Source: Methanococcus maripaludis C5
GTDB lineage: Archaea; AGJL01; Methanococci; Methanococcales; Methanococcaceae
Reading direction: 5' to 3'
Assembly: GCF_000016125.1 (NCBI RefSeq)
Contig: NC_009135.1
Coordinates: 496,001 to 560,000, forward strand
DNA length: 64,000 nt
Shown one piece after another: positions 6,672 through 31,857 of this stretch (its first letter is position 1; each line of letters starts with the position of its first letter). The notes beneath the pieces were generated by a model that was given only the letters and a program-made list of their open reading frames with translations, searched no databases and was not told where the DNA came from. Both the position numbers and the translations under genes were made by a program.

Positions 6672-8432
6672 TTATTTGATTAAAGCACCTAATTCGGATT
6701 CCATTTTGTTAATGATTTCAGGTACTTTCGTGTTTATGAATTCGTCATCAGTCAGGTATTTCATTCTTGCGATGTCTCCTTTTACAGTAACAGCTGAAAT
6801 GCCTGCTGGGTCAGCACCTTTAGCAACTGCATCCAATGCTTTTGTGTAGTAAGTCATGATGATTTTCAACATGTTGTACTGTTTTAATGGTGAACAGTAG
6901 CTGTCTACTTCGTGGTATGCATCTTGCTGTAAGAAATCTTCTCTTAACATTCTTGCAATTTCTAGGATAACTCTTTCTCTGTCCGGAAGTGCATCTGGAC
7001 CAACAAGTTGAACGATTTCTTGGAGTTCAGCTTCTTTTTGGAGTAAGGTCATTGCTTCATCTCTTAATGATCTCCAGTCTGCAGCGGTGTTTTCTTGCCA
7101 CCAGCCAGCGATGTCGTCAATATAGAGTGAGTAACTTGTTAACCAGTTGATTGCAGGGAAGTGTCTTCTTCTTGCAAGGTTCGCATCCAATGCCCAGAAC
7201 ACCTTAACGATTCTTAATGTGTTTGATGTAACTGGTTCTGAGAAGTCACCACCTGGTGGTGAAACTGCACCTACAATACATACGAATCCATGTTTGTCTT
7301 CCGAACCTAAACATTGAACTCTTCCTGCTCTTTCGTAGAACTGAGCGAGTTTTGATGAAAGGTATGCAGGGTATCCTTCTTCCCCTGGCATTTCTTCAAG
7401 TCTACCGGAGATCTCTCTCATTGCTTCTGCCCATCTTGATGTTGAGTCAGCAGTTAAGAGAACACCAAGTCCTTGGTCTCTGAAGTATTCTGCAATTGTA
7501 ATTCCAGTGTAAACTGAAGCTTCCCTAGCAGCTACCGGCATGTTTGATGTGTTTGCAATTAATACGGTCCTGTCCATTAATTTGTTTCCTGTTTTGATAT
7601 CATCCAAGTGTGGGAACTCTTCGATAACTTCTGTCATCTCGTTACCTCTTTCTCCACAACCGATGTATACCACAACATCCACGTCAGACCATTTAGCAAG
7701 CTGGTGTTGTGTAACAGTTTTACCACTTCCGAATGGACCTGGAATTGCTGCAGCACCACCTTTTGCAACACCGAAGAATGTATCTTCGACTCTTTGACCG
7801 GTGATTAATGGAATTACTGGAGGCTGTTTTCCTTTTGATGGTCTTGGCTTTCTTACAGGCCATTTTTGCATCATTTGTACTTCTTTTTCGCCTTCAGCGG
7901 TTTCAACAACTGCAACTGTTTCTTCAACAGTGAAGCTGCCTGATTTGATTTCTTTGATTTTACCACTAATTCCTAAAGGAATCATGATTTTGTGAACGAT
8001 TGATGCAGTTTCTTGAACTGTACCGATAACGTCTCCAGTTATAACTTCATCTCCAACTGCTGCAGTTGCTTCAAAGTCCCATTTAATATCTCTTGAGATT
8101 GATGGAACACTTACTCCTCTTGGGATGTAAATTGAATCTGTAGCATTTTCGATTTCGTTTAAAGGTCTTTGAATACCATCGTACATTGCTTTTAACATAC
8201 CAGGGCCGAGTTCTACTGATAATGGAGCACCAGTACCTTCTACGCCTTCTCCTGGTTTGATACCAGCAGTTTCTTCATAAACCTGAATGATTGCTTCGTC
8301 CTCAGTTAACTGAATGATTTCCCCGGTTAAACCTTCGTTTCCTACTTTAACCACTTCAAACATCTGGGAACCTTTCATGCCTTCGGCAACAACAACCGGA
8401 CCGGATATTTTGATAATTTTACCGACGACCAT
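6672..8432 (-). CDS. atpA: A1A0 ATP synthase catalytic subunit A
   Basis: Catalytic subunit of the ATP synthase, 586 residues, full length. Walker A GPFGSGKT is at about residues 232-239. [10 protein letters not shown] and the [20 protein letters not shown] segment, which includes the Walker B aspartate, follow. The large non-homologous insertion typical of A subunits (about 110-200) is present. No intein interrupts the P-loop region, unlike some archaeal homologues. It lies 15 bp after atpF and uses ion flow through A0 to make ATP at the membrane. Confidence 0.98.
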
Positions 8433-24512: not shown

Positions 24513-26555
24513 TTATTTCAGTTTTATTTCACTCTCTCCAGGTGGAAGTGCCCTTAAAATATCTTCATCGTCAATCTCAAAGTCACTAAATTCTTTTAAA
24601 AGCTCTTTTACAAGGTCGCTCTTTTTCAATTTTCCAGGTTTTAATAAGATACATTTTTCAAAGGTTTCTTTTGCAACCGATTCAGGAGCAGTAGTTACTC
24701 TTAATTTTCCATCGTAAGTTAACATACCAATTCCAAGTTCGAGTGCAGCACTTCTTATGAAGTTTCTTTTTCCACGAATGACAAAAGCTCCTTTTTTTAA
24801 GTATTCTCCACTTTCAGCGGTTTTTGAAATCTGGTCTGGTCTAACCCAGTAAACATCTGCACTTCCAATCCCCAATTTCCAAGCTCTCGAATGTGACGAT
24901 GCAAATTTTGCAACTTCAAAGAGTACATTTTCATCAGGTATTTCTTCAGAGCCTTCTGTTCTAATTATTGTAAAAGGTGCCCCTTCCATGAGGGTGTGGA
25001 ATACTATATCGTTTTTTTCAACGTATCTTTTTATCAGCATCTCGTTAGTAGTTGCATCTTTTCCTGCAACAATTAAATATCCGCCAATAACCGTCCATTT
25101 TAATTTTTCGTACCATTTCAGTACTTTTCTTTCCTTCTTCTTAATTTTTTCTTCTTTTTCTTTTAATATTTCTGAATCGAGTTTTTCTTTATCTTTTAAT
25201 TCAGCAAGTTTTTTCTCAGAAATTTTTAAAGCTTCGATTACTCCTTGAACTTTATGTTTAAATTTCTTTGATTTTTGGTAAACTATGTCCGCATTTTCAA
25301 AAGCATTTTTTCTTAAATCTACAGGCACAGTATCTTCAATAAGCCCATTTCCATAGTCAGCAGATAGTTTCAATGTTAATTCTGCATTTTTCTCATTCAC
25401 GTTTATTATTTTACTTAAAATCGGATGGGTTTTATTTTCTTTAATGATTTTTTTAATGCCATTCCAGTCCATTTTTTCTCTAGCATCTTTAATTGTGCCC
25501 ACAATTTCATCCACGAGAGAATAATTTGCATAAATCAAATCTCCACGTTTATGGTTCGAAAGGGATTGTTTTTCGTATTTTTCTTTAGTTTCAAGCTGAC
25601 TTTTTAATATACGCTCCTGTTTTTTCACGAGTTTTTGTAATTTTGATTCAGCCTGCTTAATCTCCTTTTTCATGATAAATCTTGAGAAATATTCATCAAG
25701 TGCAGTTAAAAAGCTTTCATAATGTTTGATTTCATTTTCTTTTAGATTTTCATGCATTTTTAAATCAATTGGACTAATATCTACAAATTCTCCATTTTTA
25801 AGTGTAGATTTTGGTTTTATTTCATTAAATACCCTGTTAAAAAATACTTTCGAGCCTTCGAAAAGTTTTTCGATTTCTTCATTTTTTGGATTTTTCAAAT
25901 TTTTATCTATTTCTGAAATCAGGCAAATTTCTTCGGAATAAACTCCTGCAAGTCCAAAAGTCCTTGAAATTATTCTTACAACTTCGGTATCATTGTTTTC
26001 TTCTTTTTGGAATTCTTCGATAAATAATTCTTTAGCAAGGGAATAATCTAAATTTTTTGGATCAAGGTCCTTTTGAGGCGGGAACTTGTAAATTTCTTTT
26101 GGAACGATTTTTCTCGTACTCCACCTTTCAATTTTTAACGGGAGAATTATTTTATCTTCGCTATCAAGGAGTATCGCGTTTCCATCGCCAAATAATTCGA
26201 TAATTAGTTTATATTTTAATTCGTTCCATTCAAAATTGAAAATTACAATCCTGTCAAAGTTATGCTGGGCAACACTCGTTATTTTAATGTTTTTCAAGTG
26301 TTTTCTAAGAAGCATTACAAATGAATGGGGATTTCTCGGTTTTTCTCTTTCGTATTCTGTAATTGTTATGTATTTATATTTTCCAAGACCTATTGCAATC
26401 TCTCTTGAACCGATTTCAGGAATATGCACTTTTAAAATTAATTCCTTTCCATCCTGATTATTTACTAAAAAGGCTTTGTCTAATTTTCCGTTGATTACTT
26501 TTTGAAGTTCTGATACTGCGGCACTGATATCAACGTTCGTCATCTCTGTTTTCAT
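24513..26555 (-). CDS. RqcH/NEMF-type ribosome quality-control protein (NFACT)
   Basis: NFACT-family protein of 680 residues, archaeal counterpart of bacterial RqcH and eukaryotic Rqc2/NEMF, which bind stalled large ribosomal subunits with peptidyl-tRNA and add C-terminal tails. The order is an NFACT-N domain (MTNVDISAAVSELQ onward), helical region, a long coiled coil (about 300-350 and 430-480), then NFACT-R with WTVIGGYLIVAGKDATTNE and the SHSRAWKLGIGSADVYWV segment. ATG at 26555 is preferred to an upstream TTG at 26579 since it follows GGAAGAGAT. Confidence 0.88.
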   Translation of the reverse strand: MKTEMTNVDISAAVSELQKVINGKLDKAFLVNNQDGKELILKVHIPEIGSREIAIGLGKYKYITITEYEREKPRNPHSFVMLLRKHLKNIKITSVAQHNFDRIVIFNFEWNELKYKLIIELFGDGNAILLDSEDKIILPLKIERWSTRKIVPKEIYKFPPQKDLDPKNLDYSLAKELFIEEFQKEENNDTEVVRIISRTFGLAGVYSEEICLISEIDKNLKNPKNEEIEKLFEGSKVFFNRVFNEIKPKSTLKNGEFVDISPIDLKMHENLKENEIKHYESFLTALDEYFSRFIMKKEIKQAESKLQKLVKKQERILKSQLETKEKYEKQSLSNHKRGDLIYANYSLVDEIVGTIKDAREKMDWNGIKKIIKENKTHPILSKIINVNEKNAELTLKLSADYGNGLIEDTVPVDLRKNAFENADIVYQKSKKFKHKVQGVIEALKISEKKLAELKDKEKLDSEILKEKEEKIKKKERKVLKWYEKLKWTVIGGYLIVAGKDATTNEMLIKRYVEKNDIVFHTLMEGAPFTIIRTEGSEEIPDENVLFEVAKFASSHSRAWKLGIGSADVYWVRPDQISKTAESGEYLKKGAFVIRGKRNFIRSAALELGIGMLTYDGKLRVTTAPESVAKETFEKCILLKPGKLKKSDLVKELLKEFSDFEIDDEDILRALPPGESEIKLK

Positions 26556-26713
26556 ACGTATCTCTTCCAAATGTTCCAAATGATTTTAATGTTTTATCAA
26601 AGAATAATGATTATTTAAATTCCATATGTTTTATTATGGTAATATTACGTATATTTTGACGTTTACTATACTATATATGCTGTACTTATTAAAATATTCT
26701 TCAGGTGGTAACT

Positions 26714-27290
26714 TTGCAAAGAAGTGAAGAATTATTTTTTTTACTTCCAAGATGAAGAAAAACTAAAAATTTACAAAAAAGAATCGAATGAACTAGTGGT
26801 GGTAGTTTTAGCTACTTTATGGGGTTTTCAATAGTATTTAATCTCAAAGATTATAATAAAGAAAAAATCCAGATATAATTGATAAGTTAGGCCATATATG
26901 GGGCATTTTAAACACTTTGGGGCGAAAAACACAAAAACACAAGACAAAGTACTCAAATCGGTACGACGTATCGGGAGACTTACGTGAGAAGTTAAAATGA
27001 AAATAAATTATTTATCCTTAAAACAGGAGTTCGGATATTTGAAATTATAAACTTAAAAGTTCAGAATATGGATTTGGATTCAAAAGATGCATTTATAAGT
27101 TTTGAAAATGGTAAAAAATAGATATATGTTTTTCGATAAGGATTTAGCATTTCACTTAAAAGAATATCTAAAAAAAGTTATCTAATGTACATATTGCCGT
27201 ATAGAACTGACCACAAAAAAGATTTTTTAACCTCAAACGAAGCCCCATACATGCCATTATTTTTCTTTTTAACTTTTAAAAATACATATA
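26714..27290 (+). pseudogene. Tyrosine recombinase (Xer/integrase) relic
   Basis: Frameshifted remains of a tyrosine recombinase. The best segment is at 27014-27120: KTGVRIFEIINLKVQNMD and then DLDSKDAFISFENGKK. It matches the catalytic-Arg box (TGxRxxE...NL) and the beta-hairpin before the catalytic Lys. A stop follows and the match resumes in another frame at 27120-27184 (RYMFFDKDLAFHLKEYL). Near 27205-27260 DFLTSNEAPYMP resembles the next family segment. Upstream, GDLREKLK at 26970-26996 is in a third frame. No His-x-x-Arg box or catalytic Tyr remains. An AGGTGGT site near 26703 could mark the old start. Confidence 0.7.
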
Positions 27291-27377
27291 CGTTTTTAAC
27301 CTATTTTAAATAATTTAATACCTTTTAAAGTTTATATGATCCACAATATAAATACATATAACTATTTAAGCGTAAAC

Positions 27378-27385
27378 TATTAATA
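27378..27385 (+). promoter_or_regulatory. TATA box of candidate RNA gene copy A
   Basis: TATTAATA followed by TATG lies 30 bases ahead of the first hairpin of the RNA candidate. The same octamer stands 31 bases ahead of the first hairpin in copy B at 29593. The spacing suits an archaeal TATA box with transcription starting at the hairpin base. Confidence 0.5.
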
Positions 27386-27407: not shown

Positions 27408-27527
27408 CGGAACGTGTGTTCCGTTTAAGTTAGTTATTATGGGGATTTTAACTAACGTTAGGGATAGGATCAATGGAATAAATACCACTAATTTAGTAGT
27501 TTATTCCTTTTTCAAAAAATCTTTTTT
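27408..27527 (+). ncRNA. Candidate structured RNA, copy A
   Basis: Three consecutive hairpins then T-runs. Hairpin 1: CGGAAC 27408-27413 with GTTCCG 27418-27423, tetraloop GTGT. Hairpin 2: GTTAGTTA 27429-27436 with TAACTAAC 27449-27456, loop containing ATGGGGATTT. Hairpin 3: GGAATAAA 27475-27482 with TTTATTCC 27500-27507, with an inner ACTA/TAGT helix. T-runs at 27508-27512 and 27522-27527 would end the transcript. Copy B repeats this plan with a different hairpin 1 sequence. A 62-codon frame begins inside hairpin 2 (ATG 27439) but has no ribosome site. No known RNA family is recognised. Confidence 0.5.
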
Positions 27528-27651
27528 AATTTCATTTCAATTACAATTTAATGTAAAAAAAGTCAAATCTTTATGTAATGATGTTAACGTCCATGTTTCA
27601 CTCCTCTTAAATATATTTGAGGTTTAGGAGACATAAAATCTCAAAAAATAA

Positions 27652-27835
27652 TGTTACTACGATTTAACTATTTAATCGGACTACTCAATAATGTTTTTTC
27701 CACACATATGTTTTGCTAATTAATGTATAAAATGTTCATAATATAACAAAACATGAAAAAATATCCTGCCCCTCCAACGATTTTTTTTAAAATCAGGATA
27801 TTTTTAGGATAATACTCTACTTCGTACTGACACTC
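27652..27835. repeat. Repeat element, copy 1 (~185 bp)
   Basis: Diverged copy of the element at 28272-28460. Shared parts in the same order: TACGATTTAACTATTTAAT at 27658-27676, ATGAAAAAA with AAATATC, GGATAAT and the right end TCGTACTGACAC at 27822-27833. The left end GTTACTACGA is a degraded inverted partner of the right end. On the minus strand both copies share a protein-like stretch (about ILILKKIVGGAGYFF here), so it may be a relic of a coding sequence rather than a small mobile element. Confidence 0.55.
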
Positions 27836-27891
27836 TTGGATGGACCTAACAGATATGTTATTGGCCATTATATATCTATTTGTAGGCAATC

Positions 27892-27916
27892 GTTTAGTTA
27901 ATACCCCCAACTAAAC
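27892..27916 (-). repeat. Hairpin with G-rich loop, minus strand
   Basis: Perfect inverted repeat: GTTTAGTT 27892-27899 with AACTAAAC 27909-27916. On the minus strand the nine-base loop reads GGGGGTATT, recalling the ATGGGGATTTT loop of hairpin 2 in the RNA candidates. There is no preceding hairpin 1, so it is either a broken third copy or a chance similarity. A 64-codon minus-strand frame starts here but has no ribosome site. Confidence 0.4.
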
Positions 27917-27950
27917 CTAAATTTTAATAAATATTTAAATTTAAAATAAT

Positions 27951-28025
27951 GGCCCTGTTTAGATAAATGGGGATTTTAAATATATTATGATAACATCACA
28001 ATAAGTCAGATGCTAAAACAGGGCC
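27951..28025. repeat. GGCCCTGTTT inverted repeat
   Basis: GGCCCTGTTT at 27951-27960 is matched exactly by AAACAGGGCC at 28016-28025, 55 bases apart. A further direct copy of GGCCCTGTTT stands at 28560-28569; both direct copies are preceded by AAT and followed within 25 bases by ATGG(GG)ATTTTAAA. In a region this poor in G and C, a ten-base exact repeat present three times is unlikely to be chance. Confidence 0.5.
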
Positions 28026-28271
28026 AGTGTTAGATCAAAATCTATTTTATAAAAATGTTTTGTAATTGTTACAATATAATGTCTTTAAATTCACAACTGA
28101 ATTGTTTAGATGATCCATTTATTGATTGGGGGCCACAAACCTCCTAAATATATTAACTAGCTCAAAAAAGTAATATTTTAGCACAATCTATCAATATTGA
28201 AGATGGATGTCCCGCTTTCATCTCCATGTAAGTTATACTTTGAGGTCGTTTTGGTAACCAAATCCAAAAAG

Positions 28272-28460
28272 TGGTGTCAATACGATTTAACTATTTAATT
28301 AGGACATTTTAGCTAAAAGATTTTTTAAGTATATAAATTTTACTAAGTGGATTATGAAAAAAGCCATAAATTACTTTAAAAGTGAAAATATCTGGCTCCT
28401 TTAAAATTCCTAAGAATTTGGATAATATCACTATAATGATCTAATTTCGTACTGACACCA
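28272..28460. repeat. Repeat element with terminal inverted repeats, copy 2 (189 bp)
   Basis: Bounded by TGGTGTCAATACGA at 28272-28285 and TCGTACTGACACCA at 28447-28460, which are inverted complements with one mismatch in 14. It shares TACGATTTAACTATTTAAT (28281-28299) and other internal blocks with copy 1. Size and ends resemble a MITE. No target-site duplication is obvious. It encodes nothing intact. Confidence 0.55.
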
Positions 28461-28810
28461 AAATTTGTGTAAGTTTTTAGTTTTTTTAGATTAATTTCAA
28501 TCAAAAAGTATTTTAAAATCAAAAAAAATGAATAAAAAATCATTATACCTGTAAAAAATGGCCCTGTTTTTTTGGGAGAATATGGATTTTAAACATTTCA
28601 GATCTGTTTAAAATAATTCAAAAATGTTTGAAAAAGGCTGTTTTACAAATTAGGCCCCATTTTATAAAAATTTTTCGCAAATGCCTGTATATTATACATT
28701 TATATTCAAAAAAGGATAATCTGATCGATCCGTTTTTAAATTAGATCTAAAACACACAATATTCCATAAATATTTATTTTTATTAATAATTAAAACCTTC
28801 AAAAAGATTT

Positions 28811-29065
28811 TTAATCATCTTTTTTTAACTTTTTAATATGGAAATGGCGTTTATTTTGAAAACCAACGGTTAACAAAACACTTTTTCTAAATAACAACCA
28901 GTAAATTATTATAAAACTAAATAACACACTAAAAAATATCCCGATTATACTATGCCTTGTTACAAATAAACAGATTAGTAAAGGAACCCCTATAACAATA
29001 CTGGATACAAAAATAGTATCTAAAAGTAATTTTCTGAATTCATCTTCAGCATAACTCAAATTCAA
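28811..29065 (-). CDS. Small two-helix membrane protein (uncertain)
   Basis: Frame of 84 residues beginning at TTG 29065, right behind GGGAGGGG, the best ribosome site in the island though closer than usual to the start. Two hydrophobic spans (about 15-35 and 40-58) are followed by a basic tail ending KKLKKDD. No family is recognised. It could be a surviving gene of the inserted element. The AT-rich context favours hydrophobic codons by chance, so the call stays tentative. Confidence 0.45.
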   Translation of the reverse strand: MNLSYAEDEFRKLLLDTIFVSSIVIGVPLLICLFVTRHSIIGIFFSVLFSFIIIYWLLFRKSVLLTVGFQNKRHFHIKKLKKDD

Positions 29066-29592
29066 CCCCTCCCTTTTAAGTATAAATGAAAATATTCCAA
29101 ATAAACGTCATTTAATAGGCTTAATTAAAATTATGTATTCAATGACTATTTAATTTTATACATGGGGTCATAATTAAAAAAAGAAAAAATGTTTTTGGGG
29201 TAGAATTTTTAAATTTAAACTCTTTTGAGGTTTGGAGTTTAAAGTAGATTAATTTATCTAAATGTAAAACGAGGTAAATATTTTTTAATTAAGGTTAATG
29301 TAAGAATATTCATGGCTGTATATCACAACAACTTTATTTTTAAAAATATATGGGATTTATTATTTAATTTAAATAAGAATCCATAAAGATTTTTGACTTG
29401 TTGAACCGCCATAAAATGCTACTTTTTGTTATATTAAAATAATTTTATAATTGGGATTAATCTGCATTTTTTTATCTTTGTAGGCCCGGTTTTTTTAAAA
29501 AATTAAAGTTTTTTCAAGCTTCAATGCTTAAAAATAAAATAATCCATAATGTTGGAATTATATAGTTTTTTTTATTTAATCAAATAAAAAAA

Positions 29593-29600
29593 TATTAATA
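29593..29600 (+). promoter_or_regulatory. TATA box of candidate RNA gene copy B
   Basis: TATTAATA at 31 bases from the first hairpin of copy B, mirroring copy A at 27378. The sequence between box and hairpin is not conserved between the copies, while the distance is. Confidence 0.45.
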
Positions 29601-29623
29601 ATTATTAAGTCCTATTTATTGAC

Positions 29624-29746
29624 GGGTGGGACATCACCCTTAGTTAGTCTTTAAATGGGGATTTTCAGCTAACTATGGATATTTTGGTGATAATTACAAA
29701 AGTTTGATATAGACGTGAAATTTTTGTATTTTTCACCATTATTTTT
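29624..29746 (+). ncRNA. Candidate structured RNA, copy B
   Basis: Same architecture as copy A. Hairpin 1: GGGTG 29624-29628 with CACCC 29635-29639. Hairpin 2: TAGTTAG 29641-29647 with CTAACTA 29669-29675, loop carrying ATGGGGATTTT (29655-29665). Hairpin 3: GTGAAA 29715-29720 with TTTCAC 29731-29736. A T-run at 29742-29746 follows. Hairpin 1 has wholly different bases from copy A but keeps a helix, the kind of change expected of a conserved RNA structure. In this copy the ATGGGG frame stops after five codons, which argues against a peptide. Confidence 0.5.
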
Positions 29747-30156
29747 GCAGTATTTTAAATTCAATTTTACGACTTATAACTGAAAGATTTTTGGCCCCTG
29801 CTTTTTTTTAAATCAAACTTAAACGTGTTTACAAAATAAAATTTTAAATTACGTATCAACTAAAGATACAGATCTGGCGAAAAAGATAATTTTTTTGGAG
29901 AAAAAGTAAATTAAAATTAATAAAAATATTGAATTTAGAAATTATTATGATTTAGAAATTAATTCCTTACTTTCTTCCATTCTATTTTCATACTTGTTTT
30001 TGCAATCCATTTTTTAAAATATTCATCAGATCAATGATCATCTAAATGAACATAACAATTCATGTTTAATTATATATATTTAAAAGCCATGAATATATGT
30101 TATTGCATGAGATAAGACTTGAGAACTTAAAATAGAAACACAAGGCGAGGCAGATT

Positions 30157-31857
30157 ATGGACGTTGAAAATTTGATAATAACGACCTTAAAAGACAAGGT
30201 AAGGGAATTAACTGGAAATGAGATGGATATAAGACTTGACGAACCGCCTGCAATAAACATGGGAGATTACTCAACAAATATTTCATTTAGATTGGCAAAA
30301 GACCTGAAAAAAGCTCCAAAAATGATTGCAGAAGATATTGCAAATTCATTAAGTATTTTGGGAATTGAAAAAATCGAAGCTGTAAACGGATACATCAATT
30401 TTTTCATGAATTATTCAGACTTTTCAAAGGAAACAGTTTCAAAAATATCTGCTGAAAAAGAAAACTTTGGAAAACTCGAAAAAAGAGACGAAAAAGTTAT
30501 TTTGGAACACACTTCAGCAAATCCAAATGGACCTTTTCACATCGGTCACGGAAGAAACATGGTTATTGGGGACAGCTTAAAAAGAATATTAATTGCGTCA
30601 GGATACGATGTAGAAACACAATACTACGTAAATGATATGGGTAGACAAGAAGCAATTGTTGTTTTTGGAAATGAAAGATTTGAACTCGATAAATCCAAAA
30701 AAGCAGACCACGCAATTGGTGAAGTTTACGTTGAAACGAATAAATTGCTTGCCGAAAACGAAGAACTCGAACAGGAAATTCTAAATTTAATGAAAAATTA
30801 TGAAGAAGCTTGTGAAGCTGGAATTGAAAACGAATTAACTGAAAAATTTAAAAATGCAGTTGATTATTCATTAGGTGGATTTAAAGAAACACTCTCAACG
30901 TTAAATATATATCACGATAAATTCGTCTGGGAAAGCGAATTTGTAAAAAGCGGAATGGTTAGAGATGTAATAAAAAGATTAATGGATACCGGAAAGGTTG
31001 TTGAAGATGAAGTTTTCAGACTCGATCTTTCAGATTACGGACTTGAAAAAAAGCTTGTTTTAGCAAGATTAAATGGAACAAGTCTTTATTCAACAAGAGA
31101 TATTGTATACCACATTAATAAAATGGAAAACTGCGATTTTGCAGTAAATTTGCTTGGAGCAGATCACAAATTAACCGCAGTAATGGTTAACAAGACTTTA
31201 GCGCTTTTAGGATACAACGAAGCTGAAGTTGTATTTTACGAGTTTATTTCGCTTCCAGAGGGTTCAATGAGTACAAGAAGGGGCAGATTTATCAGTATGG
31301 ACGAACTCTTTGAAGAAGCAAAATCAAGAGCTGCTGAAGAAGTTAGAAAAAGAGGCGTTGCTGAAAACGAAGAAGAAATCGAAGAGATTGCGAAAAGAAT
31401 TGCAGTTGGTGCTGTAAGATACAATATCGTTAGAATTGCGCCAGAAAAACCAATGGTATTTAGGTGGGATGAAGCACTCGACTTTGAAAAAGTTGGATGT
31501 CCGGTTATTCAGTACGCTCATGCAAGATGTTCGAGAATTTTGGAAAATGTTGAAACTATTTCAAATGATAATTTATTTGCATATGAAATGAATGAAAATG
31601 AAAAAACAATTGTAAAATTGCTGTCAAAATTACCAAAAATCGTTGAAAAAGCAGCAGAAGTTAGAAAACCCCAGATTGTTGCAAACTATGTACTCGATGT
31701 TGCGCAAGGGTTCAACAAATTTTACGCAAACTGTCCTGTTTTAAAAGAAGAAAATGAAACTATCAAAAATTCAAGACTCGCAATTGTAAACACTACAAAA
31801 ACAGTCCTGGAAAATACTCTCGATCTTTTAGGTATTGAAATGCCTGGAAAGATGTAA
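30157..31857 (+). CDS. argS: Arginyl-tRNA synthetase
   Basis: Class I synthetase of 566 residues charging tRNA-Arg. The HIGH motif is in [20 protein letters not shown] (near residues 120-139) and the second signature is [14 protein letters not shown] (near 371-384), the usual ArgRS replacement for KMSKS. The N-terminal ArgRS additional domain and C-terminal anticodon-binding helices (starting near [14 protein letters not shown]) are present. It starts at ATG 30157 after AGGCGAGGCAGATT and is followed, 120 bp on, by the GINS-MCM pair. Confidence 0.97.

Follow-up and report, generated by a model that had tools for sequence, protein, structure and literature searches.

Genomic context of the locus

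We analyzed a 64,000-nucleotide stretch of the genome of Methanococcus maripaludis C5 (G000:C1:496001-560000), here called the window, alongside stretches from two relatives of the M. maripaludis group, among them L070 from genome G001 and L067 and L068 from genome G002. Two copies of a small structured RNA, termed RNA A, are both located within a 3.6-kb gap that lacks large genes in the ORF listing of the window and is bordered by an NFACT/RqcH-like gene and an arginyl-tRNA synthetase gene (Table 1). In G002 the same two flanking genes are separated by an insertion of roughly 11 kb. This insertion encodes a tyrosine integrase (Pfam Phage_integrase, E 1.8e-36) and a Rep-like protein of 412 aa that weakly matches the rolling-circle initiator family Phage_CRI (E 0.0023, under the Pfam cut-off). 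It also encodes a winged-helix protein, DUF2283 and DUF4258 proteins (both under the cut-off) and small or large hydrophobic proteins. An integrase and replication-type genes at the same site identify the G002 insertion as an integrated mobile element. Since remnants of the integrase and of a 181-aa gene of the element were found in the window, the RNA genes of C5 sit in a decayed integrated element.

Table 1. Positions of the RNA genes and neighboring features in the window.
Feature	Position	Strand	Basis or remarks
688-aa NFACT/RqcH-like gene, left neighbor of the gap	24513-26579	minus	Name read from sequence
Remains of a 181-aa gene of the element (without Pfam match) and of the tyrosine integrase	26700..27182	+	Match L067 12090-12635 and 11226-12074
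RNA A1 promoter: BRE-like CGTAAAC and TATTAATA (27378-27385)	27371..27385	+	30 nt upstream of RNA start
RNA A1 (copy 1)	27408..27512	+	Model 89.1 bits; fold z -2.97
RNA A1, hairpins 1 and 2	27408-27423; 27424-27462 (GGGG loop)	+	Sequence, fold
RNA A1, 3' portion: linker with GGATAGGATC, terminator-like hairpin, T5	Hairpin 27475-27507; T5 27508-27512	+	Sequence, fold
RNA B1'	27937..28026	-	75.7 bits; z -4.11
RNA B1' parts: stem TGGCCCTGTTT/AAACAGGGCCA; internal AAAATCCCCAT, complementary to A loop; weak T-rich 3' end		-	Sequence, fold
B1' TATA box TTTATAAA	28046..28053	-	27 nt upstream of RNA
B2, degenerate second B' copy	28558..28665	-	Sequence, alignment; z -0.62
84-aa hydrophobic small ORF of the element	28811..29065	-	In G001, similar DNA directly upstream of RNA A (L070 about 7850-8097, minus)
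Segment U	29100..29392		Matches L067 10360-10072 (72%) and L070 7916-8205 (67%)
RNA A2 box TATTAATA	29593..29600	+	30 nt upstream of RNA
RNA A2 (copy 2), diverged A	29623..29747	+	z -5.32; 13.5 bits; follows segment U as in relatives
RNA A2 parts	Hairpin 1 29624-29639; hairpin 2 29641-29675; third hairpin about 29685-29738; T5 29742-29746	+	
Arginyl-tRNA synthetase gene, right neighbor of the gap	30157-31857	plus	Name read from sequence

Segment U precedes RNA A in G002, and an overlapping stretch (28883-29183) precedes RNA A in G001. A further hairpin-like stretch, TTTAAACTCTTTTGAGGTTTGGAGTTTAAA, was seen within segment U at 29216-29245, with a similar one in L067 near 10240. No Pfam match was found for the 84-aa hydrophobic ORF. 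The gap also holds a transposon-like repeat of ~195 bp with inverted ends GGTGTCAATACGA, located at 28268-28462 and also at 27650-27840; G002 has an 85% identical copy between the RNA genes A and B, and a further copy of 70% is found at G000:C1:1759082. The Rep-like protein (L067 3875-5113) matched four sites in C5 at E <= 0.001 (215105, 732762, 913950, and 1231071), which suggests that this genome carries several more integrated elements.

RNA A is a new family of structured RNAs

Five clear members of RNA A were identified in three genomes, one in C5, one in G001 and three in G002 (G002a, G002b, and G002c). A plain DNA search with copy 1 of C5 returned its homologues at 74-75% identity (E 4e-14 to 4e-24). 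The same plan was found in every clear member: a TATTA[A/G]TA box lies 29-31 nt upstream of a hairpin GGAAC-N4-GTTCC, which is followed by hairpin 2 with the loop TTATGGGGATT[T/A]. The lower stem of hairpin 2 is altered between copies yet still pairs in each. Downstream of it lie an AGGATA-type segment and a terminator-like third hairpin, which begins with GGAAT and has a T-rich end. The RNA is predicted to be about 105-125 nt long. Copy 1 has the box, the GGAAC hairpin, the TTATGGGGATT[T/A] loop hairpin and the T-ended third hairpin, and thus belongs to the family. The distance from box to RNA at six loci was 29, 30, 30, 30, 31, and 31 nt, two of these being counted by hand from the sequence. 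A CGTAAACTATTA(A/G)TA box is kept in G002a and G001, with close variants in G002b and G002c. The G002b member (L068 8513-8631) stands by itself: it has its promoter, and its surroundings are ordinary chromosome and hold no other element genes.

A preliminary description of the window had noted two RNA copies of the same plan, each with its own TATA box, and no resemblance to a known family. Both copies are present, with fold z-scores against dinucleotide shuffles of -3.0 (copy 1) and -5.3 (copy 2), and TATTAATA is found 30 nt before each RNA; however, the positions given for the two copies, 27408 and 29624, are the starts of hairpin 1 rather than of the TATA boxes. The lack of a known family was borne out by Rfam 15, which at gathering thresholds assigned none to the window or the relatives and gave only sub-threshold, implausible matches. 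ARAGORN found no tRNA or tmRNA match to the RNAs in the same sequences (its sole match in the relatives, a tRNA-Leu in L125, lies apart from the RNAs), and plasmid and phage collections yielded no useful match. Matches from a pattern scan of viral and genome contigs were dropped for want of model support.

A covariance model was built from the five copies and searched against 36 Methanococcales genomes. The copies scored 79-99 bits, as expected for the sequences that made the model, and the best unrelated score was 28.9 bits, in what by eye is coding sequence. A match to the model in genome G025 (E 0.0065) was set aside as protein-coding by eye. The preliminary description had proposed such a search across Methanococcales; here members turned up in the M. 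maripaludis group only.

Fold z-scores of the A copies ranged from -1.4 (G001) to -5.3 relative to shuffles, and in the minimum-energy fold of the G001 copy hairpin 1 is swapped for a rival pairing. In the A alignment (A4) 91.8% of cells were paired, compared to 14-50% in controls with slid partners. Only one pair was altered on both sides; with so few and such similar copies, this did not exceed shuffles. The compensatory change that had been read from the two C5 copies is therefore visible but statistically thin. Two other features of RNA A were considered and rejected: a short peptide (MGILTNSR...), whose frame is lost in both C5 copies and in G002c, and a conserved stem GATC/GGAT closing off hairpins 1 and 2, which would lie upstream of the predicted start and is absent in G001. 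Altogether, the structure of RNA A and its standing as a family are well supported.

Copy 2 differs strongly from the other members. Left out of the A model, it scored 13.5 bits (E 0.53 window-wide), and its hairpin 1 pairs, yet without clear sequence in common with the other copies. Because of this low score its membership rests on plan, spacing and gene order, and together with the fold these led us to treat it as a probable, strongly diverged RNA A.

A second predicted RNA gene is convergent with RNA A

The motif ATGGGGATTTT was found in a third exact copy on the plus strand at 27967-27977, and this copy led to a second conserved unit, termed B. The unit occurs in C5, in G001 and at two G002 loci, lying 225-600 bp downstream of A. 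The RNA predicted from the minus strand of B is referred to as B'. It is present at four of the five A loci, the exception being G002b, where no B' was found near A. A model built from the four B copies gave no further significant copies in Methanococcales. Mean pairwise identity reached 0.91 within the A core and 0.77 where B begins, compared to 0.2-0.5 across much of the flanks. The preliminary description had covered neither this convergent and complementary RNA gene nor the mobile-element context or the strong divergence of copy 2.

In all four B' copies TTTATAAA is located exactly 27 nt before a 14-bp stem, though the spacer differs. Right behind the stem a run of six or seven T was found in three of the four (G001 and both G002 loci); in C5 the stem is kept, the T-rich end is weakly kept with loss of the U-tract, and most of repeat 2 is lost. 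Termination at U-tracts is established in M. maripaludis, non-coding RNAs included (PMC8716108). Since TTTATAAA is palindromic, the direction of B' was read from its A-rich upstream side and the T-tract. A plus-strand reading of B was rejected: the stem there is preceded by an A-tract and lacks a following T-tract, while the minus strand has both a TATA box and a T-tract. A peptide in B' was likewise rejected, as start codons vary and the frame is broken in C5.

The fold z-scores of B' were -4.1 to -6.1 relative to shuffles. Pairing of the outer stem is kept through G-C/A-U and U-A/C-G swaps, with 94.3% of cells paired compared to 30-53% with slid partners. Two pairs were altered on both sides, and 39 of 500 shuffles reached the observed score; with so few sequences, the covariation of B is weak as well.

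Roughly 110 bp beyond B (28030-28145) are also conserved between elements, with a possible hairpin TTTGTGG..CCACAAA in G001. It may represent one more unit, or else a bidirectional promoter region built around the palindromic TATA box. In two G002 elements B' is adjoined by a 100-aa membrane protein family (L067 8665-8967), which has relatives elsewhere in C5, G001, and G003.

RNA A and B' are complementary

On the plus strand A and B have GGGGATTT(T)AAC and TC[G/A]AGGAT in common. With this core present as direct repeats and B' read from the other strand, A and B' become complementary. The number of shuffles out of 1000 that were as high as the observed similarity of the A and B cores was 3 for C5, 0 for G002a, 1 for G002c and 93 for G001, which is clearly above shuffles in three of the four elements and not clearly so in G001. 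The energy of the A:B' duplex beat 92-100 of 100 shuffles in all pairings; cognate pairs were not stronger than non-cognate ones. In predicted ensembles the GGGG of A was 94-100% unpaired and the CCCC of B' 59-97% unpaired. Since the two cores have a common origin, they are complementary in any case, whether or not the cell makes use of it.

A probable two-RNA unit and its alternatives

We hold it to be rather probable that A and B' are a convergent antisense small-RNA pair regulating the element. Copies 1 and 2 would then both represent a small-RNA gene carried by an integrated element resembling a plasmid or virus, of which a decayed form is left at this locus, and the complete unit would consist of two convergent small-RNA genes. 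RNA A would be read from its own TATA box; its 5' hairpin would be protective, the next hairpin would present GGGG for recognition, and a U-rich hairpin would serve as terminator. B', encoded on the other strand, would form a single long stem with AAAUCCCCA left single-stranded inside it; intact copies would also have a U-tract. The two would meet via their GGGG and CCCC segments, with pairing extending through the second repeat (UCGAGGAU / AUCCUCGA), and would inactivate each other like the antisense control pairs of bacterial plasmids. One of them may act as an effector controlling the element's expression or replication, with the other as antagonist. The transcription of both RNAs is predicted from promoter and terminator sequences, and their pairing in the cell, mutual inactivation and role in element control are likewise presumed.

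A target search inside the element gave no convincing target: only the start site of a 552-aa protein and a GGGGATTTAA located ~10 nt before another ORF were found, within chance expectation. The start region of the 552-aa gene (AAATGGGGATTA, L067 from 6786) matches the core, and the gene adjoins the RNAs only in G002a.

This search also bears on a reading of RNA A as a stand-alone trans-acting sRNA, which would use its GGGG loop and AGGAUAGGAU segment to regulate an mRNA of the chromosome or the element, like the archaeal sRNA162, B' being a degenerate or unrelated hairpin gene of shared ancestry only. The G002b copy, which has no B' and ordinary chromosomal surroundings, fits such a role, as does C5, where A is intact while the protein genes and most of repeat 2 of B' are eroded. 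However, the other four loci always have B about 225-600 bp after A in the same arrangement, B retains its own promoter spacing, its stem and (in three) its T-tract, and the trans target looked for in the element was not found. We regard this reading as unlikely.

The antisense pair also has a more far-reaching version, in which an archaeal integrative element is governed by two mutually regulating non-coding RNAs, one of them an antisense sponge of the other, and A persists in decaying elements since it shields the host from renewed entry by the element, as an RNA-based incompatibility or immunity. This is speculative and, in our judgment, quite unlikely.

The hairpins may instead act as DNA, forming the origin or the Rep-binding structures of an element that replicates by rolling circle, in which case the shared core would supply the iterons. 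The weak, below cut-off match of the Rep-like protein to Phage_CRI points in this direction, and methanogen plasmid origins are expected to hold hairpins (PMC9569500). We find this very doubtful, as the constant distance of the TATA boxes and the strand specificity of the T-tracts accord with transcription, and the other sites with relatives of the Rep, some of them in A-bearing genomes, have no significant A or B matches.

Little credence was given to a type I toxin-antitoxin system, in which B' or A would repress a small membrane protein of the element (the 84-aa ORF or the 100-aa family) or the 552-aa protein, which has a match to the core in its start region (AAAUGGGGAUUA). Small hydrophobic ORFs do flank the RNAs, and the convergent antisense layout resembles par of pAD1. 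Against this, neither A nor B' has a conserved ORF, the flanking ORFs vary between elements, and the 552-aa gene is found in one element only, its relatives elsewhere having just a part of it in common.

Chance hairpins in decayed AT-rich DNA, which the preliminary description named as the outcome if transcripts and further homologues with conserved pairing were lacking, are scarcely credible: the decay of the element and the degenerate state of copy 2 and B2 speak for them, but homologues of the same plan with pairing kept were found in two other genomes, which already contradicts this reading, and the fold scores are mostly well beyond shuffles.

Relation to known systems

Antisense-RNA control of mobile elements is textbook knowledge for bacterial plasmids. 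We know of no worked-out archaeal, element-borne pair of mutually complementary non-coding RNAs. In par of pAD1 (Fst, RNA I/RNA II) two RNAs are convergent across direct repeats and complementary in trans (PMC7472228). The A/B' unit likewise has convergent promoters (as predicted from sequence), direct repeats that give rise to complementarity and a location in a mobile element. In contrast to par, it has no shared bidirectional terminator, the 3' ends in C5 being ~425 bp apart (27512 and 27937), and no short hydrophobic toxin ORF, as the frames are short and not conserved; furthermore, the starts of the A and B units are about 225-600 bp apart, and the host is an archaeon. With toxin frame and shared terminator missing, A/B' is not a member of the par(pAD1) family, but it may work partly alike. 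The plasmid copy-control RNAs CopA/CopT and RNAI/RNAII are transcribed from overlapping DNA and are fully complementary. A and B' share with them hairpin loops with G-rich or C-rich recognition segments and an element-borne location, whereas their genes are separate and only the core is complementary.

Among methanogens, Methanosarcina sRNA162 is a chromosomal trans-acting sRNA with known mRNA targets (PMC3510493). It resembles the proposed role of A and B' as a small regulatory RNA acting by base pairing, but differs in its chromosomal location and known targets, and a sequence relation to A/B' is not apparent. The pURB500-type plasmid of the same strain (8,285-bp contig) is a Methanococcus element that carries, by eye, a relative of the 107-aa protein near G002c; a relationship to this 8.3-kb plasmid was rejected, as neither A nor B was found on it. 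Antisense RNAs directed at transposons appear in a review of archaeal small RNAs, where a word-start search for plasmid and toxin was unmatched except for "toxic protein" (PMC5867862).

RNA A is better seen as half of a two-RNA unit belonging to a mobile element. Richter et al. (2012) is given as the source of an M. maripaludis C5 RNA-seq set in PMC4644070. With such published data and a genetically tractable host group, transcription of A and B' is checkable at once, and the circuit is testable in a laboratory strain. If true, it would be an archaeal counterpart of the antisense-RNA control circuits of bacterial plasmids.
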